Positions 148-43,488 of a stretch of DNA of 43,488 bases are shown here, in pieces (position 1 is the stretch's first letter; each line of letters opens with the position of its first letter). The notes beneath the pieces were generated by a model. The model ran no database searches, was not told the DNA's origin, and saw only the letters and a program-made list of their open reading frames with translations. The stretch is from IMG/VR virus record IMGVR_UViG_3300044695_004339, positions 1 through 43,488 of that record; one strand, given 5' to 3'. Both the position numbers and the translations under genes were made by a program. This DNA is from a virus.

Positions 148-187
148 GATCCCTTTGTTGTAGTGATATAACTTAGGGATTTTTTAT
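148..187 (+). terminator. Rho-independent terminator after the small basic protein
   Basis: ATCCCT (149-154) pairs with AGGGAT (175-180). After a 2x2 U-U internal loop, GTTGTA (157-162) pairs with TATAAC (167-172, one G-U), closed by a GTGA loop. A run of six T follows directly at 180-185. It ends the transcript of the gene at 2-124. Confidence 0.8.
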
Positions 188-213: not shown

Positions 214-245
214 TTTGGAAATGTCAAATATTTGTTTTATATTGC
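214..245 (+). promoter_or_regulatory. Possible Bacteroidota-type promoter for the leader RNA
   Basis: TTTG at 214-217 is followed after 20 bp by TATATTGC at 238-245, which matches the Bacteroidota -7 element TAnnTTTG at 6 of 8 positions. The spacing is in the accepted 19-21 bp range. The predicted start point, about 5-8 bp downstream, falls just before the first helix of the structured RNA at 255. In such AT-rich DNA this match alone is weak; the position is what supports it. Confidence 0.4.
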
Positions 246-251
246 ATCACC

Positions 252-374
252 ATTGAAGTCGTACATTTAATGGAGCAATTAAAAAAATATTAATTTAGCT
301 ATATCCTGTAAAGGGTTAATATATAGTAAGCTCCAAGTAGAATGTACGAATTCTTTTGGGGCTTTTTCTTTTTA
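252..374 (+). ncRNA. Candidate structured leader or small RNA with two exclusive folds
   Basis: Two alternative structures are visible. Fold 1: 255-267 pairs with 341-353 (12 bp, one mismatch), enclosing TGGAGC (271-276) with GCTCCA (330-335). Inside these, CTATAT (299-304) can pair with ATATAG (321-326), or ATCC (303-306) with GGGT (313-316). Fold 2: AAGCTCCAA (328-336) pairs with TTGGGGCTT (356-364, one G-U), with an inner stem AGAAT/ATTCT (339-343/350-354), followed by a U-tract at 363-373, which is a classic intrinsic terminator. Both folds need 330-335 and 341-353, so they exclude each other, as in attenuators and riboswitches. It could instead be a free-standing small RNA ending at its terminator. 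I do not recognise a known RNA family. Confidence 0.5.
328..373 (+). terminator. Intrinsic terminator of the leader RNA
   Basis: A 9-bp stem (328-336 with 356-364, one G-U) is extended by a 5-bp inner stem (339-343 with 350-354) and a 6-base loop. It runs directly into TTTTTCTTTTT (363-373). It is the second of two competing folds of the leader. Confidence 0.65.
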
Positions 375-784
375 TACCTATACTCTGTTCAATCTTCCTA
401 ACAGATCAAAAAGGAATTAAATAATAGAATATATTGAGAAACAAAATGTTTAGTTAGATATTATATTACCGAAATAAAAATCTCGCAATGTCCTAACCTG
501 ACAACGAGTCCTGGGAGTAGAAAACATTTAAATCTGCTGAGTAATATAATAAATGAAAACTCCAATCCTGATGTAATCAAAGGGAGAATAAATAAGAATT
601 GGAAACAGGCAGAAGTGCTAACTAAGCTAAAGAGTAATTGCCCTCTTTTAATCCTAATACTCTCTTTAAAAAATAAAAGAGTATCCCAGGATAGAGGTTT
701 CCTATGTATACTCATTATTAACAATTTTTAACTATAATTTGGTTTATTCATATATTTTATTATATTTACATTTAAACTTTTATT
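375..784 (+). other. Non-coding gap with a G+C-richer island
   Basis: I see no convincing gene here. The part from about 481 to 710 is clearly richer in G and C than the surrounding DNA and has several self-complementary pieces. ATACTCT (657-663) pairs with AGAGTAT (678-684), extended past a bulged C. TCCTGGGA (509-516) is the exact complement of TCCCAGGA (684-691). GGAAAC (601-606) is complementary to GTTTCC (697-702). CTCC (560-563) and GGAG (583-586) enclose a small TGAT/ATCA hairpin. It could be a structured RNA, a decayed gene or a foreign insert; the sequence does not decide. There is no tRNA T-arm motif and no group I or II intron core that I recognise. The last 70 bp before the next gene are nearly pure A/T. 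Confidence 0.4.
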
Positions 785-1249
785 TTGGCTAAAAAACCAA
801 ACAAAAAATCTGTTAAAAAGAAACAAGATCCTGAAAAATTAAAAGAATTTTTAATTAAACAAGGAGATATATTTGCTGCTCAACTTAAAGAAAAAGCAAC
901 TGGTTGGGAAAAAATATTGTATAAAATTCTTAAAGACTTACATTACAATTTTAAATTTCAAGTGCCAATAGTAGTTCCTGTAGGAAAAAGTTATAAACTA
1001 TATATACTTGATTTCCTTCTTACAGATTATAACATATTTATAGAAGCAGATGGAAAAAGTACACATGGCTCTAAAGAACAAATAAAGAAAGATAACCTAA
1101 GATCAAAACATTTATTAAAATTAGGACTACACCCTTTAAGATTTAGTAATAAACAAATATCTGCATTTTCTTCAAAACAAATAAATGAAATAATAAAAGT
1201 TAGGCTTGAAATGTTAAGTAATGTTAACAAATTAGGAACTGACAATTAA
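785..1249 (+). CDS. DUF559/VSR-like PD-(D/E)XK endonuclease
   Basis: The 154-residue product has a lysine-rich N-terminus (1-20), a helical region, then a compact nuclease core at about 42-145. It resembles the DUF559/very-short-patch-repair fold: Asp76 in YILDF, then Glu87 in EADGK, followed by STHGSKEQIKKDN and a basic C-terminal helix. In this superfamily the acidic pair binds metal for DNA cleavage. DUF559 proteins are often stand-alone nucleases of unknown target, and phage copies may act in recombination, homing or host DNA attack. The frame opens after a TAA at 773, and TTG at 785 gives the natural-looking N-terminus MAKKPNKK. No ATG is available without losing the nuclease core, and ATT at 782 is a less likely alternative. 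It is the first gene after the leader RNA. Confidence 0.7.
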   Translation: MAKKPNKKSVKKKQDPEKLKEFLIKQGDIFAAQLKEKATGWEKILYKILKDLHYNFKFQVPIVVPVGKSYKLYILDFLLTDYNIFIEADGKSTHGSKEQIKKDNLRSKHLLKLGLHPLRFSNKQISAFSSKQINEIIKVRLEMLSNVNKLGTDN

Positions 1250-1490: not shown

Positions 1491-1868
1491 ATGACAATAA
1501 AACAAAAAGTAGACAAATACCTAAAAGACAACTACGGAGATGTAGTATTTGAAACAAAAGTAAAAGGTTTTAGATGGCAAAAAATAGCAGACAAAATTGG
1601 TAAAGATATAAACAAAGATTTTGTAAAAGATAGATGGAAAGTAGTAAAGAAGAAAATGGAAGAAACTAATAATACAAAAAGTGGATATGATCCTATAATT
1701 ACTCAAGAATTAGAAAAAGAGAGAATATCAAATCTTAATAAAACACTTCCACAAAACCATACAATTTCTTTTGAAGTAACAAATCCTATAGTAAAAGAAT
1801 TATATACTCCTAAAAAACAACCTTGGAGTTTTATAACATTTCTTAAAAACTTATTTAAAAACCTATGA
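1491..1868 (+). CDS. Hypothetical protein sharing the N-terminal domain of the next gene
   Basis: The 125-residue product begins with a helical, basic domain (about residues 1-60) that aligns by eye with the start of the phosphoesterase encoded next. The shared pattern is YLK..Y, then G...W..(I/V)A..I, then an R followed by a KK-rich helix. After it come a polar linker and a short basic, aromatic C-terminus (PWSFITFLKNLFKNL). The domain looks like a small DNA-binding or protein-docking helical unit (inference). The stop overlaps the next ATG (ATGA), indicating translational coupling. It may be a truncated duplicate of the phosphoesterase that lost the catalytic part, or a partner competing for the same binding site. 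Confidence 0.6.
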   Translation: MTIKQKVDKYLKDNYGDVVFETKVKGFRWQKIADKIGKDINKDFVKDRWKVVKKKMEETNNTKSGYDPIITQELEKERISNLNKTLPQNHTISFEVTNPIVKELYTPKKQPWSFITFLKNLFKNL

Positions 1869-3217
1869 GTAAAATAAAAGAACTAACAGATGCTTATTTA
1901 AAAAAGCATTATCAAAAAATACAAGACCTAAAAGATTCTGGTAAAATTAAATGGTCTGAAGTAGCAAGAGAAATATTAAGCTCTACTAAACATGGAGAAG
2001 GTGTTGATCCTGAGTATATTAGAAAAAGATTTCTTCAACTGAAGAAGAGTGTTAAAGTTGTAAACACAATAAATAAAACAGCACAAGAACTATTCAATAA
2101 AGAAATAAGTAAATTTCAATATTCTTCAGGAAAAGAAAACAAAGAACAAGGAACAAAAGAATTTCATTTTACAGCCGATACAATACCTACAGAAGATGAA
2201 ATCATAGAACACTTTAACATTGACATTAAGAAGTTTAAAATAAGCCAAATATGGCATAAAACTACACCATCTGGTAAATACAGTATTTCTGTAAATCTTC
2301 AAGCTTTAAAAGATGAATATGCTATAGATTTTAAAAAAGAGTTTGAAAAATTTATAGAAAATTATAATGTTAAAAAATTAACACAACAATTTTCTCAAAA
2401 ACAAGAAAGTAAATTTCAGAAAAAAACATCTGTTCTTTTAAATCTTTCAGATTTACATGTTGGTAAATTAGCTTGGGATAAAGAAGTTGGTTCAGATTAT
2501 AATGTTGATTTAGCTAAAAAAGTATTTTTAGAAGCTTTAAAAAATCTTGTATATCAATCAGTTAGATGTTTTGGCGTAGAAGAATTTATATTAAATATAG
2601 GTGGTGATTTCTTTCATACAAACGGTTCTTTAAACCAAACAGCTAATGGGACTAATATGAATGATGTAGATACAAGGTATCAAAAAATTTATATTAAAGG
2701 ATTAGAAATTCTTACAGAAGCAATAGATTTTCTTGCTTCTTTTGAAGGAGTAAAAGTAAAATTATATGTAGTACAGGGAAACCATGATAAAGCTACTTCA
2801 TTTTATCTTGGAGAATCTTTAAAAGCTTTTTATAGAAAAGACAAAAATATAGAAATAGTAAACGATCCTCATATAAGAAAATATCATAAATATGGAGTGA
2901 CTTCTTACATGCTTACTCATGGAGATTGTAAAGACGATGGATTACCACTTACTTTTGCTACAGAAAAACCTGATTACTTTGCAAGTTCAGAATACAGATA
3001 TATATTTTTAGGACATCTTCATAAATCTTCAAGAAAAGTGTATCTTACTGAAAATGAGGTTGGTGGAGTAGTTTCAAGAAGATTAAATTCTTTATCTGTT
3101 ATGGATGCATGGCATAATGAAAACAATTATTATGGAGCTAAAAGAATGGCTAATGCTTTAATATTTGATAAAGAAAATGGACAAGTAGCTGAATTTAACT
3201 ATATAGTAAAAAAATAA
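1865..3217 (+). CDS. Calcineurin-like metallophosphoesterase
   Basis: The 450-residue protein carries the full metal-binding motif series of the calcineurin-like/Mre11-SbcD superfamily: SDLH (D196, H198), GDFFH (D248, H251), GNHD (N306, H307, D308), THGD (H352) and GHLH (H384, H386). Residues 1-65 form a helical N-terminal domain also present in the preceding gene, followed by a linker and an unassigned domain at about 100-180. Family members hydrolyse phosphodiesters or phosphomonoesters with two metal ions. Substrates range from DNA ends (Mre11/SbcD) to nucleotides, and the substrate here cannot be told from sequence. It is the last gene before a terminator, so it belongs to the left group rather than the virion block. 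Confidence 0.88.
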   Translation: MSKIKELTDAYLKKHYQKIQDLKDSGKIKWSEVAREILSSTKHGEGVDPEYIRKRFLQLKKSVKVVNTINKTAQELFNKEISKFQYSSGKENKEQGTKEFHFTADTIPTEDEIIEHFNIDIKKFKISQIWHKTTPSGKYSISVNLQALKDEYAIDFKKEFEKFIENYNVKKLTQQFSQKQESKFQKKTSVLLNLSDLHVGKLAWDKEVGSDYNVDLAKKVFLEALKNLVYQSVRCFGVEEFILNIGGDFFHTNGSLNQTANGTNMNDVDTRYQKIYIKGLEILTEAIDFLASFEGVKVKLYVVQGNHDKATSFYLGESLKAFYRKDKNIEIVNDPHIRKYHKYGVTSYMLTHGDCKDDGLPLTFATEKPDYFASSEYRYIFLGHLHKSSRKVYLTENEVGGVVSRRLNSLSVMDAWHNENNYYGAKRMANALIFDKENGQVAEFNYIVKK

Positions 3218-3299: not shown

Positions 3300-4055
3300 A
3301 TGTATACTTTTAGACAATTTTATGCCGATATAACCACTAATATTAAAGCTATTAGTGCAGATAGTTATATTCCTGCAAGATACATTTATAATGAAGCTCA
3401 ATCTATTATAGCTGACTACCTCAAAAAAGATAATGATGCAAAAAAGAAACTATCAAGATTAAAATCTGGATGGAGTGAACTTACATGTATAGATTTAGAA
3501 GAAGTACCTGTAATAGAATGTGGAGATATAGATGTAAGACTTTGTGATAAAATGATGAAATCTACACATAAGATTCCAGATATATACACTTATTCTTATG
3601 GAGATATTATAGAATATGTAGCTTCTCCAAACTGGGGATTGTTTTTTAAATGGACTACTCCTGAAGTATGGAAAGCTATACAAACAAGAAGATATAAAAA
3701 ACAAAACGAATATTACTTTTTTATAATAGAAAATTATTTGTATTTACCAATACCTAAAAATGTAGACCTTCCTATAGAAAAACTAAGAATGAAAGCTTAT
3801 TTTAAGGACAAGAAAGAAGTAGACATTTTTAATAACCTTAAAGATTGTCTTGATTGTGCTAAAGCTCCAACAATATGTACATCACCTTTAGATTATGAAA
3901 TGGTAATTCCTTCTTACCTAATTAATGCAGTTAAATTAGAATTATTAAATAGAATAGCTCAAACATACTTAAAAATACAATTGGATAGTTATCCTAATTT
4001 AAATAGTAATGATTTAAATAATGTTAAAGATTTAAATACTTACGGAGCACCATAA
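3300..4055 (+). CDS. Probable neck/ring protein (P22 gp4-like head-tail connector)
   Basis: The 251-residue protein begins with a helical N-terminus (TFRQFYADIT... SYIPARYIYNEAQSI) and ends with a helix (about 205-235), with beta-rich sequence between. This layout, its size, and its position at the head of the tail module upstream of the muzzle gene match the 'tail stabilization / ring' proteins of crAss-like phages. Those stack below the portal and lead into the tail tube. The assignment rests on size and order more than on a residue motif. The adjoining 314-residue protein may be a second ring protein. No signal peptide or membrane segment is seen. Confidence 0.5.
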   Translation: MYTFRQFYADITTNIKAISADSYIPARYIYNEAQSIIADYLKKDNDAKKKLSRLKSGWSELTCIDLEEVPVIECGDIDVRLCDKMMKSTHKIPDIYTYSYGDIIEYVASPNWGLFFKWTTPEVWKAIQTRRYKKQNEYYFFIIENYLYLPIPKNVDLPIEKLRMKAYFKDKKEVDIFNNLKDCLDCAKAPTICTSPLDYEMVIPSYLINAVKLELLNRIAQTYLKIQLDSYPNLNSNDLNNVKDLNTYGAP

Positions 4056-4074
4056 AAACCAAAAAAAAAACCAA

Positions 4075-4686
4075 ATGGCTACTACACAAGATAACACAGG
4101 AAAAAAATATAGAAAACTTCCTCACAAAAATATAATTTCTACAGAGTTTTGTAACAAAGTAAGAGAAAGATTGAATTTAACAAATAAAGAACTTCCTGAT
4201 TCAAAAATAAAACAGGTATGTCATCTTTCAAATCAATTAATAGGAGATTGGGTAATTAACAATGCTGATGGATTTCATATTAAAGATAATGGAAGAATAG
4301 TAGTTTCAAGATGGCTTCCTAAAGCACTAAGAGGAGATAAGGAAGAAAAAATAGAAGAAATTATAAATAATCCTAAGAATGATGATTATATGAAAAGGAT
4401 TTTAGTAGCAAGATACCAAAAATCTTTAGAGCATTTTAAGAAATTTAGGAATGGTAAAAAAGTAGGATATTATACAAACATTGAATCATTCTTTTATTTA
4501 TATAGAATAATATGGTTTAATTCAAGAAATTGTAAGTTTGACAAAGCTGAAATATATCAACTTAAAATTGGAAAATCAATAACAAAAAAACTTTCTAAAA
4601 AAATATTAGAAGGAAAGCAATACTTTGAGTGGCAATTTTCGGATTTTCGTCAGAGAAAAAAAGATAATAAAAGAGACAAAAAATAA
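4075..4686 (+). CDS. Conserved-type phage protein of unknown function (203 aa)
   Basis: A basic protein with an N-terminal helical region (CNKVRERLNLTNKELPDSKI), a central INNADGFHI turn followed by a strand, and an aromatic-rich C-terminal half (YYTNIESFFYLYRIIWFN) ending in a Lys-rich tail. The layout reminds me of a family found among structural genes of Bacteroidota phages whose role is not known. The gene sits between two neck/ring candidates with gaps of 19 and 6 bp, so it is made with them. A role in virion assembly or as a small DNA-binding protein is possible but not shown. Confidence 0.55.
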   Translation: MATTQDNTGKKYRKLPHKNIISTEFCNKVRERLNLTNKELPDSKIKQVCHLSNQLIGDWVINNADGFHIKDNGRIVVSRWLPKALRGDKEEKIEEIINNPKNDDYMKRILVARYQKSLEHFKKFRNGKKVGYYTNIESFFYLYRIIWFNSRNCKFDKAEIYQLKIGKSITKKLSKKILEGKQYFEWQFSDFRQRKKDNKRDKK

Positions 4687-8600: not shown

Positions 8601-11520
8601 AGCAGTAGATAGTTCTGATTATTTACCACATCCTTTTTCAGGAACACAAAACAATAAATACACTTTTGATAGTCCTAATACATCATTTAATAATCCAGGA
8701 TTAGGAACAGAATTAAAATTAGAGTGTGAACAATATGGTATATCTATAGGTAATTATAATGAATTAAAAAATAATGCAAATTACCAATATATAGGAGCAG
8801 GAATAATATCAGCTGCTGTAGGTTTTGCTGGATTAGAAACTGCTTTTGAAAGTATTTCTACTGTAATAAATGCTACATTAACTTTAAATTTAGAAATATT
8901 TGGAAGTGGTTCATCAATTCCATTAGGATTAATTTTGGCTTTAATAGGTGAAAATTTAGTAGCTCCTGTAAGACTTTATTCTCATTATGCTGAATGGTTT
9001 GAAATCATAAAGAAATTTGCTCCATTTAGAAACTATGGGGTTACATATTCAAGCGTTGGTGTATATAATCAAAATAAAAATGAAGTTGAAGGAAATATAA
9101 GAAGAACTATAGCAAATGCTCAATATACAAAACAAGGTATTATTAATGTAAAAACTACAAGAGGTAATACAAGATTTAATAATTTTAAAAGAGAATCTTC
9201 TGTATTTATTGAATTAGCTGATAATTCTTTCTTTAATTCTACAACAGAAATAGATAATAGTAGAGTGCTTCCTGAATGTGATAAATCAAATGGTATAAAA
9301 ACTAATATAGCTTCTCATTATGCTTCTTTAAAAAACCAAAACCTATCTCAATATGGACAAATAGATAACATCCAATGGATAGATACAGGATATAATGGAG
9401 TGATAGATTGGACTAATCCTAATCAAGATACTTCTTGTGATACAATATTTGGAGGAGATACCTTTATAAATAGATTTACAAAGAAAAGAAAAGTTCCTAT
9501 GTTTATGGATGATAGAGTTGTACCTTCCTCAGCTACACAACTTAGTCCATTAAATCTAGATATTCAAATGTCTTTATTATCTAATATTGGATATTCAAGA
9601 TATTTTATGAACTTTCCTACAACATTTGATTATACAGGAATAGAAGGAGGATTATTTGGAGATGTAGCTGTTGTTAATAAAAACAGAGCAGATTATAATT
9701 TTTATTGTTTTTCTTCTTCAGGACAATCTTGGAAAGATGCAGGATTAGCTACAGCAATTATAGGGGGAATAGCAGCAGGAGCAATAGGAGTAATTTCATT
9801 GCCTATTGCAATTGGTGTAGCTTCTGGACTTGTAAAAAGAGATTTAGGAAATGATTTATTTCTTAATGGAAGATATATACATTCTTTTTATGGAATTATT
9901 TCTTTTCTTTGTGAATCAGATTATAATCTTGATTATAGACATGGAGAAAACTTTAGAGAAAAAGATTTCTATCCTAATGTAGGAGATACAAATGAATGGA
10001 CACAAGAATACAATGTTCCTATGTCTTTTGATAATTTTTATTATTACAATAGAGATTACTCAAAACAAAATAATGAAAACCCTAACTTCGTATTAAACAA
10101 TGATTTTAAACAAACTAAAGAAGATTGTAAAATCTCTCATCCTAACAGGCTTATTTACAGCTTACAGGATAATGATCAAAATGACAAATTTGACGGAAAC
10201 CTCATTTTTCTCGCTAACAATTATTATGACTTTCCTAAGTCAGGAGGTAAGGTTAATATTGTAAAAGGTTTACAAAATGGTAAAGTATTAGTAGTACAGG
10301 AAAATCAATCTTCTGTATTTAATTCTTTTATATCTTTAGAAACAAACATTGCTACATCAGCAGTTGGTTCTAATACAATATTTAATAGTTCTATTCCTGC
10401 TCAATACATTAAAACTGATTTAGGATATGGTGGTAGCCAAACTAATGCTTGTATAACTACAGAGTTTGGAACTTATTGGGTAGATAATAAAAGAGGACAA
10501 ATAATTAGTCTTGGAGATGGTATTTCAAATATAATACAACCACAAGAAGAATGGTGGTTTAAACAAAATTTACCTTTTCAAATTTTAAATGATTTTCCTG
10601 ATTTTGATATAACCAACAATTTTAAATATGTTGGAATGGCTATTACTTATGATGCCAGATACAAAAGAATTATATTTACTAAAAGAGATGTTGAACTAAA
10701 ACCAGAATATAAAGGACATGTAACTTATGATGGAAATCTTTTCTATTTAGGAGATAATACATTTACAGTAGAAAATGACAAATATTTCTGCAATAAATCT
10801 TGGACTATTTCTTACAACCCTCTTTTAAAATCATTTGTTTCATTTCATAGTTTTGTACCAAATTATTATATTCCTAATCAAGCATATTTTTCTTCAGGTA
10901 TAAATTATTCATTTAATTCTTTTTCTGAAGAATATGGATTATGGGGACATAATTTAACTAATCAAAGTTATCAAGTATATTATGGAAAAATAAATCCTTA
11001 CATTCTTGAATATTCTGTTCCTACAAAATATCAAAATAAACAATTAGAATCAATAAGATATGTCACTGAATTTTATAGATTCCAAGATAATATATCTTCA
11101 GGATTAATTCCAGAAAAAACATTTAACAAAGCAATTGTTTATAATCAAAAACAATCTTCTGGATTATTAGAATTAATTCTAAAAGAAAAAAATAACAGAC
11201 AACAATCATATCAGTATTCTTCAGGAAAACAAAATCAAAACTCAAGAAGTATTTTAGTTGAAAAAGTTAATAACGAATGGTCTTTTAATAATTTTTATAA
11301 TGTAGCAATTTATAATTCTGGTCAGCCCCTCATGCAATTTTCTTGTGATAACATAGCATATAAAAACCTAAATCCAGAAGCTATTAGCTATAAACCCCAG
11401 TATATAAAAGAAAAAATGGTATCTGATTATCATATTGTTAGACTAATAAATGATAAATATAGTAATTATCATATATTGAATAGATTTTTTATTACAAGAA
11501 CTCAAAACTATGATTCATGA
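5644..11520 (+). CDS. crAss-like tail 'muzzle'/stabilization protein
   Basis: This 1,958-residue protein starts with NINVPQSGMNFANPSTL, a form I associate with the large tail stabilization ('muzzle', nozzle-type) protein of crAss-like phages, which closes the tail tip and is often compared with T7 gp12. It is beta-rich almost throughout and unusually rich in cysteine. Residues about 678-782 look like an inserted beta-sandwich of the PPC type (WYQF... LEGLTPSHLYYIKV). Two hydrophobic, glycine/alanine-rich stretches (about 1050-1110 and 1367-1402) could enter a membrane. The C-terminal third has YWVDN/YDARY-type repeats suggestive of a propeller, as in nozzle proteins. The stop overlaps the start of an inserted homing endonuclease gene (ATGA). 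Confidence 0.72.
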   Translation: MSEFNINVPQSGMNFANPSTLKEGQFSLILNGILQSVDGNFLMASNDHSNILLTRFKDGYKVIGTFVVPALSVTFLFLTNPATSDSEIGFIFDTNSPDKPDITGANGKILEQDPLETRVQTPISQYYTFVNAKCLNFDIDHPVSSWVKIDDCNVRIYFNDFKNPPRYINYKDFQKIDISNCPLIETDQLDCDKIQIFPESCYPKVEVIDVVSGGQNKAGVYQFAVCYSDVNSNKITDYFYVTNPTPLFDQPITVNTDYTVYKSFKLEITNLNTDFKYFNLVVLKTINNVTTPQLVETFEVNSSNFTYVYTGVDKNIQQDLALDEILVKRPLYNKAKLTTESNGYLILTSLEEPRILNLQPVVKDIPLYWQTVEMNEGDYSNPIIAQNNVGYLGDETYAFGISFTYRTGKQSNVFAFVNREATPYDLEDVGTISGKPNPDVIGSSVCDTTNPPSGRWEVYNTAESKDIVVCIDEVTEGATVQTIVDNIDCLSDIILYKDVPNPEFPTFYFNLPQGTQYPPTNKDEAEFIINWVNNIDNGLPDLATDPVKQSAINLCDCDSFLPSFPPGAIALPADPIIIDLTNPDSSVETIEEPTTFDINTYALLPPSEANDKLIKPTGAPPSAPDPCKNYAGDNNDDETKGFLAWIDAKQNNTFSGAETLAQSVNDRCAQDTYGAFIGNGGGYTESWYQFYASNKDGVAAILLSTDRGSCRGNSNNSDIEVFKTDQFGNPGMSLSPLQKQVSVNGNGIYVLLEGLTPSHLYYIKVTGGYDNPTGLARECCKNRSFKICVTSPKPQDTISYQIPGTARIIKTCNIQYEGVPENSCKPKADEYGIFAYWKSQETYPCNEQVWRELAGQPIRHFKFPDHKVKPFFKSVPGAANSLSLQINKIYPKGIRVNIEDIKFALEKAVAEGLITFEEQLQICGYRIYRSNRRGNQSIIAKGLIYDVWEYKDNIYDTGNKVLFPNFPYNDNRTNEFIKTKPLRNKAAVDSSDYLPHPFSGTQNNKYTFDSPNTSFNNPGLGTELKLECEQYGISIGNYNELKNNANYQYIGAGIISAAVGFAGLETAFESISTVINATLTLNLEIFGSGSSIPLGLILALIGENLVAPVRLYSHYAEWFEIIKKFAPFRNYGVTYSSVGVYNQNKNEVEGNIRRTIANAQYTKQGIINVKTTRGNTRFNNFKRESSVFIELADNSFFNSTTEIDNSRVLPECDKSNGIKTNIASHYASLKNQNLSQYGQIDNIQWIDTGYNGVIDWTNPNQDTSCDTIFGGDTFINRFTKKRKVPMFMDDRVVPSSATQLSPLNLDIQMSLLSNIGYSRYFMNFPTTFDYTGIEGGLFGDVAVVNKNRADYNFYCFSSSGQSWKDAGLATAIIGGIAAGAIGVISLPIAIGVASGLVKRDLGNDLFLNGRYIHSFYGIISFLCESDYNLDYRHGENFREKDFYPNVGDTNEWTQEYNVPMSFDNFYYYNRDYSKQNNENPNFVLNNDFKQTKEDCKISHPNRLIYSLQDNDQNDKFDGNLIFLANNYYDFPKSGGKVNIVKGLQNGKVLVVQENQSSVFNSFISLETNIATSAVGSNTIFNSSIPAQYIKTDLGYGGSQTNACITTEFGTYWVDNKRGQIISLGDGISNIIQPQEEWWFKQNLPFQILNDFPDFDITNNFKYVGMAITYDARYKRIIFTKRDVELKPEYKGHVTYDGNLFYLGDNTFTVENDKYFCNKSWTISYNPLLKSFVSFHSFVPNYYIPNQAYFSSGINYSFNSFSEEYGLWGHNLTNQSYQVYYGKINPYILEYSVPTKYQNKQLESIRYVTEFYRFQDNISSGLIPEKTFNKAIVYNQKQSSGLLELILKEKNNRQQSYQYSSGKQNQNSRSILVEKVNNEWSFNNFYNVAIYNSGQPLMQFSCDNIAYKNLNPEAISYKPQYIKEKMVSDYHIVRLINDKYSNYHILNRFFITRTQNYDS

Positions 11521-12545
11521 AAATAGAAGAAATATCAGCAATTTATAAAATTACTAATCCTATTGGGGAAATTTATATAGGTCAAACTACAGATTGGAAA
11601 AAAAGATTTAAATCTTATTCAAAATTACATTGTCACACTCAAAAATTATTATATCGTTCAATTAAAAGGCATGAATGGAAAAATCATAAAATAGAATTAT
11701 TAGAATACTGCACAAGTAATTTAGCTGATGAAAAAGAAATTTTGTATATTGAGAAATATAAATCTTATTACAAAAATAATCAAAATGGATTAAATTTGAC
11801 AAGAGGTGGAAAATATACAATTGCTCAATTTACAAAAAAATCAAGAACATTAAGTGCCAAAAGTCATAAAAAACCAATTCTACAATATGATCTTAATGGT
11901 AATTTTATTAGGGAGTGGGAAAGTCTAATTGATTTAGTTAAAAAAAATAACTATAACCATTCATGGGTACATTCTTGTTTGAGGGGCAAGTCAAAAAGAG
12001 CTTATAATTATATGTGGAGTTTTAAAACTCTAAATTATCCTACAAAAATAGAACCATTTGTTTTTGAAATAAAAGAGTTTATAAGAAAAAAAGGTATTAA
12101 TCCAAAATCTAAAAAAGTTTTGCAATACGATTTAGATGGAAATTTTATTAAGGGATGGGAAAATATCAGACAAGCAGCTATAAGTTTAAAAATATACGAG
12201 CAAGGTATACATAAAAATTTAAAAATGGATAGTTTACATGCAAAAAATTTTCAATGGAAATATTGGAAAGAAGATTATCCATTAAAAATAGATAAAGTTG
12301 TTCCATTAACAATAGAGGAGATAAGAAAAAAAGCAAATCAAAATTCTGTAAAATCAAATAATAAAAAAGTCTCTGTTTATAAAGAAAATGGAGAATTTTA
12401 TAAAACATTTGACTCTATTAAAAATGGAGCAATTGAATTGGGAATTAATATTAAATCGTTAGGTTCTATTTCAGATGGAATTAAAAAAAATAAAATAAGA
12501 TATGGATATTATTGGAGACTTAAAACAAATAATATAAATCAATAA
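11517..12545 (+). CDS. GIY-YIG homing endonuclease with NUMOD1-like repeats
   Basis: The N-terminal GIY-YIG nuclease domain is clear: AIYKI at 8-12, YIG at 20-22, the conserved Arg30, and a downstream Glu in KEILYIEKY near 74. It is followed by three copies of a roughly 50-residue NUMOD1-like module (about 120-170, 200-250, 285-338), each opening with a (Q/V)YDLxGxF-type strand and followed by a helix. These modules give DNA sequence specificity. Free-standing genes of this type cleave intron- or insert-less alleles and copy themselves by repair. The gene is placed exactly between the muzzle and the amidase, overlapping the muzzle stop by 4 bases and ending 1 bp before the amidase ATG, so it disturbs neither gene. 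Confidence 0.9.
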   Translation: MKIEEISAIYKITNPIGEIYIGQTTDWKKRFKSYSKLHCHTQKLLYRSIKRHEWKNHKIELLEYCTSNLADEKEILYIEKYKSYYKNNQNGLNLTRGGKYTIAQFTKKSRTLSAKSHKKPILQYDLNGNFIREWESLIDLVKKNNYNHSWVHSCLRGKSKRAYNYMWSFKTLNYPTKIEPFVFEIKEFIRKKGINPKSKKVLQYDLDGNFIKGWENIRQAAISLKIYEQGIHKNLKMDSLHAKNFQWKYWKEDYPLKIDKVVPLTIEEIRKKANQNSVKSNNKKVSVYKENGEFYKTFDSIKNGAIELGINIKSLGSISDGIKKNKIRYGYYWRLKTNNINQ

Positions 12546-20578: not shown

Positions 20579-21052
20579 ATGGGGAAAACTAAAAATGGTA
20601 AATGGTGTGATGTGTGTAAAAAACAATGTAATTGGGATCATTTTACAGAAAGAACTTTTAAAACAGGAAGAAAATATTTTGTGTGTAAATCTAATTTTGA
20701 AAAAAATAACTTTAAATCTTCTTCAAGAAAAGGAAAATTTCATCCAAGATCTAAAAGTTTAGATTATATTTTAAATTCTTTAGAATATAAAAGAGATAGG
20801 TATTTAGAAACAAAATATGGAATAAATTTAAAATATTATAATTTTTTACTAAATTATCAAAACAATTGTTGTGATATATGTAATATACATAAAGATAAGT
20901 TAAAATATAATTTATGTGTAGACCATTGTCACATTACTAGTAAAATTAGAGGTTTATTATGTAGGAAATGCAATAAAGCATTGGGTCATTTTAAAGATAG
21001 TATTGATATTATTGAAAAAGCAATATGTTATTTAGAGCATCATGAAAGATAA
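20579..21052 (+). CDS. Endonuclease VII-type homing endonuclease, copy 1
   Basis: The 157-residue protein has an N-terminal zinc knuckle (CDVC at 10-13; VC further on) and a C-terminal phage T4 endonuclease VII/HNH-like core: CDIC, VDHCH, KIRGLLCRKCNKALG, then a helix (IIEKAICYL). Two CxxC pairs bind structural zinc, and the DHCH segment carries the metal-binding catalytic residues. T4 endonuclease VII resolves branched DNA, but stand-alone relatives inserted between structural genes usually behave as homing nucleases. It is the first of a tandem pair with the same layout. Its stop overlaps the frame-shifted start of copy 2. Confidence 0.87.
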   Translation: MGKTKNGKWCDVCKKQCNWDHFTERTFKTGRKYFVCKSNFEKNNFKSSSRKGKFHPRSKSLDYILNSLEYKRDRYLETKYGINLKYYNFLLNYQNNCCDICNIHKDKLKYNLCVDHCHITSKIRGLLCRKCNKALGHFKDSIDIIEKAICYLEHHER

Positions 21053-21090: not shown

Positions 21091-21471
21091 ATGGATCATT
21101 TTGTTTTAAAAAAAGATCAATACGGAAAAGATAAATATTATTGTAAAATAAATTTAGAAAAACCAAAAATAAAAAAAGAAGTAAAAGGAGTTAAAAGACA
21201 TTTAAAAATTAAAGACAAAAATTCAAAATATTTAAAATATAAATACAATATTACAAAAGAATATTTTGAAAGTCTTTATTTATTACAAAATAATAAATGT
21301 GCTATTTGTAAAAATAAATTTTTAGAACATATGATAGATATAGACCATTCCCACAAAACTAATAAGATAAGAGGATTACTTTGTCCTAATTGTAATGCTG
21401 GATTAGGATTATTGGGAGATAATCTTAATTTTTTACAAAAAGCTATTGAGTATTTAAATAAATATAATTAA
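21091..21471 (+). CDS. Endonuclease VII-type homing endonuclease, copy 2 (5' end out of frame)
   Basis: The open frame gives 126 residues with the same core as copy 1: CAIC, DIDHSHKT, KIRGLLCPNCNAGLG, and a terminal helix (LQKAIEYL). The ATG at 21091 lies inside the conserved N-terminal region, because the codons before it encode the missing zinc knuckle (CYLC) paired with KYYCKINLEK. The complete protein would start at 21042 and needs a one-base shift at a run of ten A. The catalytic core is intact, so the short form may still be active. Copies 1 and 2 are diverged, so the duplication is old or the two arrived separately. It ends 1 bp before the next virion gene. Confidence 0.82.
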   Translation: MDHFVLKKDQYGKDKYYCKINLEKPKIKKEVKGVKRHLKIKDKNSKYLKYKYNITKEYFESLYLLQNNKCAICKNKFLEHMIDIDHSHKTNKIRGLLCPNCNAGLGLLGDNLNFLQKAIEYLNKYN

Positions 21472-41310: not shown

Positions 41311-41314
41311 AATA

Positions 41315-41345
41315 CAAATATAGTAGTTATTTTTAAATTTTCAAA
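41315..41345 (-). promoter_or_regulatory. Consensus Bacteroidota promoter for the 61-aa gene
   Basis: On the minus strand TTTG (41342-41345) is followed after exactly 19 bp by TATATTTG (41315-41322), a perfect match to TAnnTTTG. The gene's ATG starts 4 bp beyond the -7 element, so transcription would begin at or beside the start codon. Confidence 0.75.
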
Positions 41346-41350
41346 TTTTA

Positions 41351-41387
41351 GTTTACAGTAAACACGTTTTTTATAGTTACTGTAAAC
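41351..41387. promoter_or_regulatory. Paired operator-like palindromes in the divergent promoter region
   Basis: GTTTACAGTAAAC (41351-41363) is a perfect 13-bp inverted repeat around a central A. Centred 24 bp away, GTTACTGTAAAC (41376-41387) repeats the same half-sites, with the core TTAC-N-GTAA perfect. The first site lies 5 bp upstream of the -33 element of the minus-strand promoter. Two spaced palindromes between divergent genes are the usual layout for a dimeric repressor. The pair can also form one 12-bp hairpin with each other, so an RNA or cruciform role is an alternative. Confidence 0.55.
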
Positions 41388-41411
41388 AATTTTGTTAATA
41401 AATGTTAATGC

Positions 41412-42190: not shown

Positions 42191-42819
42191 AAATCATTTA
42201 GTTTTACATATTTAGCAGGATTACCCCACCAAACTTCTCCATCAGGAACATCTTTATTTACTAAAGAACCCATTCCTATTATACAGTTTTTACCTATTTT
42301 AATACCATCTTTAACATTAGTGCCTATTCCAATTAATGTTCCTTCTCCTATTATACAATTTCCAGCTATATTACATCCAGGATTAATTGTAACAAAATCT
42401 TTAAGAATAGTGTGATGTCCTACACTTGCATTTCTGTTTATAGTTACATGATTACCTATTTTTGTATGAGCAGCTACAGAAACAAGAGAATTAATAATTA
42501 AACCATATCCTGTTTCTATTGTAGAGGATAATTGAGCACTTTGATGTATAGCATTTATAAATTGACTATTTTCAATTTTAAAATATTCATAAATAGCTTT
42601 TTTGTTAAAAGGTTTTGTAGCACCTATTATAAATATTTTATTTTTTGTATTTAATTCATATTTTTCAAAATAATTAAATTGAGAATTTTTATATTCTTTT
42701 GTAGTAGGTATTTTTAAATTATTTATTATTTCTATTTCACTAAACCATTTTTTACTTTCTAAATTATCAGTAATCATGGTTATAGTTGCTTCAGATTTAC
42801 CTAATATTGTTATTGCCAT
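42157..42819 (-). CDS. NeuD/PglD-like hexapeptide-repeat acyltransferase
   Basis: The 220-residue protein has an N-terminal alpha/beta domain (about 1-85, with FIIGATKPFNKKAI) and a C-terminal left-handed beta-helix of hexapeptide repeats (about 88-205: [LIV]-G-x-x-x-x turns such as IGNHVTI, IAGNCIIGEGTLIGIGTNV, IGKNCIIGMGSLV). It ends in VPDGEVWWGNPAKYVK, the typical C-cap of sugar O/N-acetyltransferases. NASVGHHT matches the histidine pair region of the PglD/NeuD active site. Such enzymes move an acetyl or acyl group from a CoA thioester to an amino sugar or hydroxyl, usually for surface glycans. The start overlaps the end of the BKACE gene by 23 bases. The acceptor substrate is unknown. 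Confidence 0.85.
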   Translation of the reverse strand: MAITILGKSEATITMITDNLESKKWFSEIEIINNLKIPTTKEYKNSQFNYFEKYELNTKNKIFIIGATKPFNKKAIYEYFKIENSQFINAIHQSAQLSSTIETGYGLIINSLVSVAAHTKIGNHVTINRNASVGHHTILKDFVTINPGCNIAGNCIIGEGTLIGIGTNVKDGIKIGKNCIIGMGSLVNKDVPDGEVWWGNPAKYVKLNDLCVQNKDMKKN

Positions 42820-43488
42820 TTTTTATCCATTTTTTAAATTCTGAAGGAGACATTGTTTTAAAATCTAATTTACTTAATAAATATTGATTTGTTGTTTTGT
42901 TTTTGTTTTCATCATGAATATTATCTTCTAAACCAATTCTAATACCATCTACTTTTTCTATAAAAGGAAGTATTTTAAATTGATTTTTTCCTATTCCTCC
43001 TAAACATAAATAAGAATCTTTTGGTTTATAATGTAATAAATGATTTACAGATATTTCATCTGCTTGAGCATTTGTCAAATTTCCTAATATCATATTAATA
43101 TAAATAGGTTTTCTAAGTATATTTTTAGAAATTAAGTAATTAGTATAGTTTAGCATTCCTGAATCAAAACATTCTATTTCTGGAACTATATTTAAATCAT
43201 TCATTTTTTCAGCTAATTTAATAATCATTTCTGGACTATTAATATTTACTCCTGTTGTATAATTCCAACTACTCATTGTTAAACTACCCATATCAGGTTT
43301 TAATTCTAATACCTCACTTCTTGCTTCAAAAGTATTATTATGTCTACCACTTAAACTTGTACAAATAGTTAATTCAGGACAATAGTTTCTAATTCCTTCT
43401 ACTATAGGAGCAAAATGCTCTATTTTATTACTTGGTTTACCATTTTTATCTCTTGCATGAATATGAACTAATGTAATTAAATCTTCAT
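42797..43488 (-). CDS. BKACE-family (DUF849) beta-keto acid cleavage enzyme, 5' end beyond window
   Basis: The frame stays open to the right edge, so the gene is partial; 229 codons are visible and about 40-50 N-terminal residues should be missing. I translated the edge sequence by hand. It contains VHIHARD (43448-43468), the two zinc histidines of the family; TSLSGRHNN and LELKPDMGSLT; and IRIGLEDN (about 42921-42950), which supplies the third ligand (Glu) plus the catalytic Arg and Asp. BKACE enzymes (prototype Kce of lysine fermentation) condense a beta-keto acid with acetyl-CoA to give acetoacetate and a new CoA ester. All recalled active-site positions are kept, so it is likely active; the substrate is unknown. 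It is the first visible gene of an overlapping minus-strand cassette with the acyltransferase. Such a gene is unusual in a phage. Confidence 0.88.
   Translation of the reverse strand, partial: EDLITLVHIHARDKNGKPSNKIEHFAPIVEGIRNYCPELTICTSLSGRHNNTFEARSEVLELKPDMGSLTMSSWNYTTGVNINSPEMIIKLAEKMNDLNIVPEIECFDSGMLNYTNYLISKNILRKPIYINMILGNLTNAQADEISVNHLLHYKPKDSYLCLGGIGKNQFKILPFIEKVDGIRIGLEDNIHDENKNKTTNQYLLSKLDFKTMSPSEFKKWIKNGNNNIR

Follow-up and report, generated by a model that had tools for sequence, protein, structure and literature searches.

A stretch of about 120 nt upstream of a nuclease gene in a crAss-like phage can adopt two competing folds, and this two-state RNA is real both as sequence and as computed structure. 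Our computations yield three mutually exclusive helices, end states of near-equal energy, an excess over chance, and a high barrier. We read the element, with roughly even confidence, as an orphan small RNA of ~120 nt that resembles an attenuator under kinetic control and would carry its own promoter and a conditional intrinsic terminator; that it works as a switch is plausible but not proven. A first-pass annotation of the same DNA had described a two-state RNA with a promoter-like element and a competing terminator, a description that stands and exceeds chance, but its further proposals, that the element leads a nuclease gene group and may be a riboswitch, are not supported.

The window, by which we mean the whole 43,488-nt stretch of DNA that was analyzed (the 43.5-kb contig IMGVR_UViG_3300044695_004339), belongs to a crAss-like phage (Crassvirales). 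Pfam matches to CrAss_Ring_2 (2.5e-15) and CrAss_Ring_1 (1.1e-7) mark tail ring proteins 1 and 2, the muzzle protein matches crAss_MUZ (3e-48), and giant proteins of 2084 and 3948 aa are encoded further along. Judged by the muzzle protein, the nearest deposited phage is Leptolyngbya phage Lbo-JY46, at 36% identity. The nuclease-phosphoesterase group consists of the DUF559 nuclease gene, two small ORFs, and a gene for a calcineurin-like phosphoesterase/exonuclease (1865-3217). Elsewhere, the window carries a homing-endonuclease-like gene with NUMOD domains (11517-12545) and two neighboring endonuclease VII-type genes amid virion genes (20579-21052 and 21091-21471). A 164-aa ORF of the beta-keto acid cleavage enzyme family (42797-43291, minus strand; Pfam 1.1e-22) adjoins a same-strand hexapeptide-repeat protein at the contig end and is odd cargo for a crAss-like phage. 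Further, an 11-bp perfect inverted repeat (GTTTACAGTAA / TTACTGTAAAC) in the spacer at 41311-41400 adjoins, on the minus strand at 41345, a perfect promoter match of the form TTTG-N19-TATATTTG, an arrangement with an operator-like look.

All of the helices claimed in the first-pass annotation were recovered at their coordinates (Table 1). The closing helix, described as 12 bp between 255-267 and 341-353, pairs at 12 of 13 positions but is interrupted by a G258/A350 mismatch; its core is 10 unbroken pairs (259-268/340-349). The inner helix forms all six of its pairs, and the 14-bp terminator is composed of nine pairs at 328-336/356-364, one of them G-U, and five at 339-343/350-354. This hairpin, at -16.5 kcal/mol, is followed by the U-tract TTTTTCTTTTT. 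As proposed, the two folds are mutually exclusive: positions 330-335, 340-343, and 350-353 are used in both. Folding of 245-375 in each state gave near-equal energies, -31.0 kcal/mol for the junction state versus -30.8 kcal/mol for the terminator state, with the former weakening to -27.9 kcal/mol once a clamp of 3 bp with the 3' arm of the terminator is left out. Within 250-374, the junction state is a three-way junction closed by P1 and P1b, with hairpins P2 and P3. Two features of an attenuator are thus found in the element, namely, an intrinsic terminator with a U-tract and an alternative helix that takes the terminator's 5' arm and, by computation, is able to form first. A generic sigma-70/terminator scan did not flag T2 because of the scan's rule on stem/loop shape.

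Table 1. Features of the element and its surroundings (window coordinates)
Feature	Positions	Strand	Remarks
Upstream terminator T1 (GATCCCT...AGGGATT + T6)	148-184	+	-15.1 kcal/mol, U-tract; predicted to end the preceding small-ORF transcript
Promoter-like element TTTG-N20-TATATTGC	214-245	+	consensus match; predicts +1 at ~250
P0 hairpin	250-273	+	-6.3 kcal/mol; predicted to form first; occupies the P1 5' strand
P1 5' strand (antiterminator closing helix)	255-268	+	pairs with 340-353
Minimal ORF ATG..TAA (MEQLKKY)	270-293	+	inside P1b and P2; possible, unsupported leader peptide
P1b 5' strand TGGAGC	271-276	+	pairs with GCTCCA at 330-335
P2 hairpin	277-295	+	277-282/290-295, A/U-rich; predicted in junction state
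P3 hairpin	298-327	+	298-304/321-327, 305-307/312-314; predicted in junction state
Intrinsic terminator T2	328-375	+	hairpin 328-364 and U-tract 365-374
P1b 3' strand GCTCCA	330-335	+	doubles as part of the terminator's 5' arm
P1 3' strand	340-353	+	overlaps upper stem and loop of the terminator
Spacer 3' of T2	376-760	+	no credible gene; longest plus-strand ORF 38 aa from GTG
Promoter-like TTTG-N19-TATATTTA	738-768	+	24 nt 5' of the nuclease start
DUF559-family nuclease gene	785-1249	+	TTG start; PF04480 8e-12; first gene 3' of the element

The alternative pairing exceeds chance in comparisons that were run on a feature already noticed and that gave large margins. Region 250-375 scores z = -3.8, and when 100-850 was scanned on each strand (background mean -0.5, sd 1.2) the lowest values fell at start 250 (-4.2 on the plus strand, -4.3 on the minus strand). 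When the terminator was held fixed and the upstream sequence shuffled, the energy of the competing duplex of 245-327 with 328-354 (-24.6 kcal/mol; shuffle mean -8.8) was reached in none of 2000 shuffles. The best fold that leaves the terminator's 3' arm free lies 3.1 kcal/mol above the best fold overall; the shuffle mean for this difference is 12.7, and a difference of this size or smaller arose in 1 of 600 shuffles. Among 148 intergenic terminator-like hairpins from ~100 crAss-like loci, the element's alternative pairing ranks first (score -22.3; mean -10.0, sd 3.8).

Our analysis added a third mutually exclusive helix, P0 (250-257/266-273), whose energy is matched by 3% of shuffles of 245-275. 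The P0 loop (258-265, GUCGUACA) contains UCGUAC at 259-264, the exact complement of GUACGA in the terminator loop (344-349), so that P1 can be viewed as an extended loop-loop contact. When folding was followed step by step, with the polymerase covering 12 nt, P0 lasted until the polymerase was at ~354, and P1 was complete by ~362, ahead of full emergence of the terminator's 3' arm. To convert to P1, P0 must cross an estimated barrier of 6.7 kcal/mol when the exposed RNA ends at 350-355 and of 11.4 kcal/mol when it ends at 360, and the end states lie ~18-20 kcal/mol apart by barrier, both being rough path estimates that exclude pseudoknot energy. A separation of this size means that the choice of state would be kinetic.

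The promoter, transcription, the direction of control, any signal, and the regulated output are inferred, and the proposed course of events is as follows. Transcription would start at ~250, and P0 would be the first helix to fold. On emergence of 340-353, the P0 loop could pair there, and P0 would convert to P1/P1b. By capturing the terminator's 5' arm, P1/P1b would let the polymerase continue into the spacer and possibly into the nuclease-phosphoesterase genes. If P0 were held, or if the polymerase ran ahead of the conversion, the terminator would form and an RNA of ~120 nt would be released.

The promoter-like element that had been noticed just 5' of the first helix is best read as being of Bacteroidota type. 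It is the sole plus-strand match to TTTG-N19-21-TAnnTTGY in the 43 kb, in a setting of A/T-rich DNA where promoter-like matches are common. In Flavobacterium psychrophilum, TAnnTTGY placed at -12 to -5 has been mapped as promoter motif SM5 (PMC9723704). The -7 box fits this motif and, if the phage's host uses promoters of this type, would place +1 at ~250, the first base of P0. On the upstream side, T1 isolates the element from the preceding small ORF.

The element matches no known family, as had been noted: there was no Rfam match at the gathering threshold, and permissive matches were noise. Neither tRNA nor tmRNA was detected by ARAGORN nor a T-box by Rfam, and no DNA similarity was found in the phage collection. 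The sole close relative identified via the phosphoesterase, nuclease, and muzzle proteins is IMGVR_UViG_3300021121_000001 (L002), and a genome-contig search for relatives returned one distant MAG contig. L002 has the same gene order as the window, with phosphoesterases 68-69% identical and nucleases 49% identical (L002 4533-4967); its spacer (3966-4532) is similar in length to the window's (125-784) and has a terminator at the place equivalent to T1 (3981-4022). Local alignment of the two spacers was no better than that of shuffles (P = 0.47 and 0.20), the L002 spacer has no alternative pairing comparable to that of the element (P = 0.2-0.3), and Rfam found nothing in it. A covariance model of the junction matched the window alone among 86 crAss-like loci and nine other related phage records and had no match in 70 further loci. 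Similarly, two pattern scans of IMG/VR (P1 strands; P1b plus the terminator arm) returned chance matches that lacked a U-tract terminator.

The L002 spacer instead carries an oppositely oriented candidate small-RNA unit of ~150 nt (4442-4259, minus strand). Its promoter match, TTTG-N20-TAAGTTTG at 4442, is perfect, and its terminator hairpin, CCCCAAGTACATACTACTTGGGG near 4289-4259, has a T6 run behind it. The spacer may be a place where small noncoding units come and go. A 14/15-nt stretch, CCAAGTAGnATGTAC, common to window positions 333-347 and L002 positions 4269-4283, at first looked homologous; we dropped it because the spacer alignment was no better than shuffles and the T-run of the L002 hairpin lies on the other strand. 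The idea of an operator acting at the DNA level was likewise set aside: the two P1 strands are the sole exact occurrences of TCGTACATT, and the one-mismatch matches, somewhat above expectation (13 versus 6), are scattered through genes.

A separate hairpin, GCCAGRGG..GAGGAT..CTC..ATCCTCTGGC, is strongly conserved at L055:3928-3960, L022:3899 onward, L074:3286 onward, and 30 further crAss-like loci. Its end base pairs vary yet still pair (TATGCC/GGCATA, TAAGCC/GGCTTA), and it lies ~20-30 nt 5' of an ORF of ~188 aa (virion structural family phrog_31752 in L074). It scored with no Rfam family at the gathering threshold and has the appearance of a genuine RNA element conserved among environmental crAss-like phages.

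Possible, though on balance unlikely, is that the element is an autonomous phage small RNA, trans-acting or a decoy, running from the promoter-like element to T2, whose alternative fold is a mature or inactive shape with no part in transcription control. Its own promoter-like element and its intrinsic terminator at the 3' end, the ~400 nt free of genes that follow, and the other candidate unit in the L002 spacer all favor this interpretation, and high-confidence intergenic small RNAs of Bacteroidota have been defined by a transcription start site plus an intrinsic terminator (PMC7366714). However, an ordinary small RNA does not need a near-isoenergetic fold that disables its own terminator, and a target search over 21 gene starts gave no convincing target. 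The best site in that search, at the nuclease start (-23.3), had an uncorrected P of 0.03, and none was significant after correction.

The downstream spacer bears directly on the claim that the element leads the nuclease-phosphoesterase group. No credible ORF was found in 375-784, and ~415 nt separate the terminator from the start of the nuclease gene at 785. Both the window and the relative have a TAnnTTTR promoter-like box 23-24 nt ahead of this start; in L002 it is a TAAGTTTG box (4510), placed 23 nt before the start of the homologous nuclease. The nuclease thus probably has its own start site, judging from these boxes, which weakens the leader reading, although read-through from the element could add to the nuclease transcript. 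In an attenuator, the gene under control follows immediately on the same transcript; here, the gene-free gap takes that place.

In one classical riboswitch layout, the antiterminator helix that closes a three-way junction overlaps a terminator. The element shows this layout, and the first-pass annotation read it as the architecture of a riboswitch or attenuator in front of the nuclease-phosphoesterase genes. We regard control of those genes by a metabolite riboswitch, or by a leader that binds a protein, as very improbable. A riboswitch label calls for a conserved ligand-binding core, but Rfam gave no match, no homologue was found in the searched sets, L002 does not have the element, and the junction strands are A/U-rich with no recognizable binding core. 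The distance to the first gene, behind another promoter-like box, argues against it as well.

An equally slim chance attaches to a neutral overlap, in which an ordinary terminator happens to lie beside an accidental or decaying inverted repeat and nothing is regulated. Local copying can yield a perfect 10-bp inverted repeat, and the element is not kept in the nearest relative and has no homologue in any search; against this stand both shuffle tests, the first rank among terminator-like hairpins, and P0 as a third matched helix. Least probable of all is ribosome-mediated attenuation, in which translation of the seven-codon leader peptide would block P1/P1b and favor the terminator: the ATG ORF sits exactly in the P1b 5' strand and P2, so that an initiating ribosome would prevent P1, but chance alone is expected to produce short ATG ORFs in a sequence of this kind and length (120 nt), the codons show no bias to one amino acid, and there is no homologue for comparison.

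The attenuator-like reading is supported by the near-equal folds, the shuffle results, the rank among the 148 hairpins, the step-wise folding, the barriers, and the promoter match at the start of P0. It is weakened by the absence of a homologue in our searches, by an L002 spacer without comparable pairing, by a gene ~415 nt off with its own promoter-like box, by the frequency of promoter-like matches in A/T-rich DNA, and by the post hoc nature of the chance tests. We regard the element as a well-formed candidate, not a discovery. CrAss-like phages are abundant gut and environmental viruses, and our literature search on their cis-regulatory or small RNAs found nothing. A compact conditional terminator placed between the tail-gene group and the transcript of the small ORF would offer a concrete, testable way into phage gene timing. 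A bolder and improbable extension is that the element represents a new class of Crassvirales RNA switch: a free-standing ~120-nt transcript in which contact between the P0 and terminator loops would lead to a terminator-cancelling junction, and in which the outcome, release of the small RNA or continued transcription into the nuclease and tail genes, would be set by how fast the polymerase moves or by a factor from host or phage.

The element resembles known systems in part. Like attenuators and terminator-type riboswitches, it has three exclusive helices (anti-antiterminator, antiterminator, and terminator), a U-tract terminator as output, and an antiterminator able to fold before the terminator's 3' arm emerges; unlike them, it comes with no identified ligand, leader peptide, protein, conserved core, or homologues, and its first gene is far downstream with a promoter-like box of its own. 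It shares with the intergenic small RNAs of Bacteroidota, such as those mapped in Bacteroides thetaiotaomicron (PMC7366714), a free-standing intergenic location and an intrinsic terminator, and its putative promoter is Bacteroidota-like. It differs from those RNAs in being phage-borne, in lacking an Rfam match, and in having a fold able to disable the terminator it carries. Among bistable RNAs, plasmid copy-control RNAs and kissing-loop switches begin with a loop-loop contact. As in these, hairpins with complementary loops (UCGUAC/GUACGA in the element) are convertible to one long duplex, whereas in the element both hairpins belong to one molecule.
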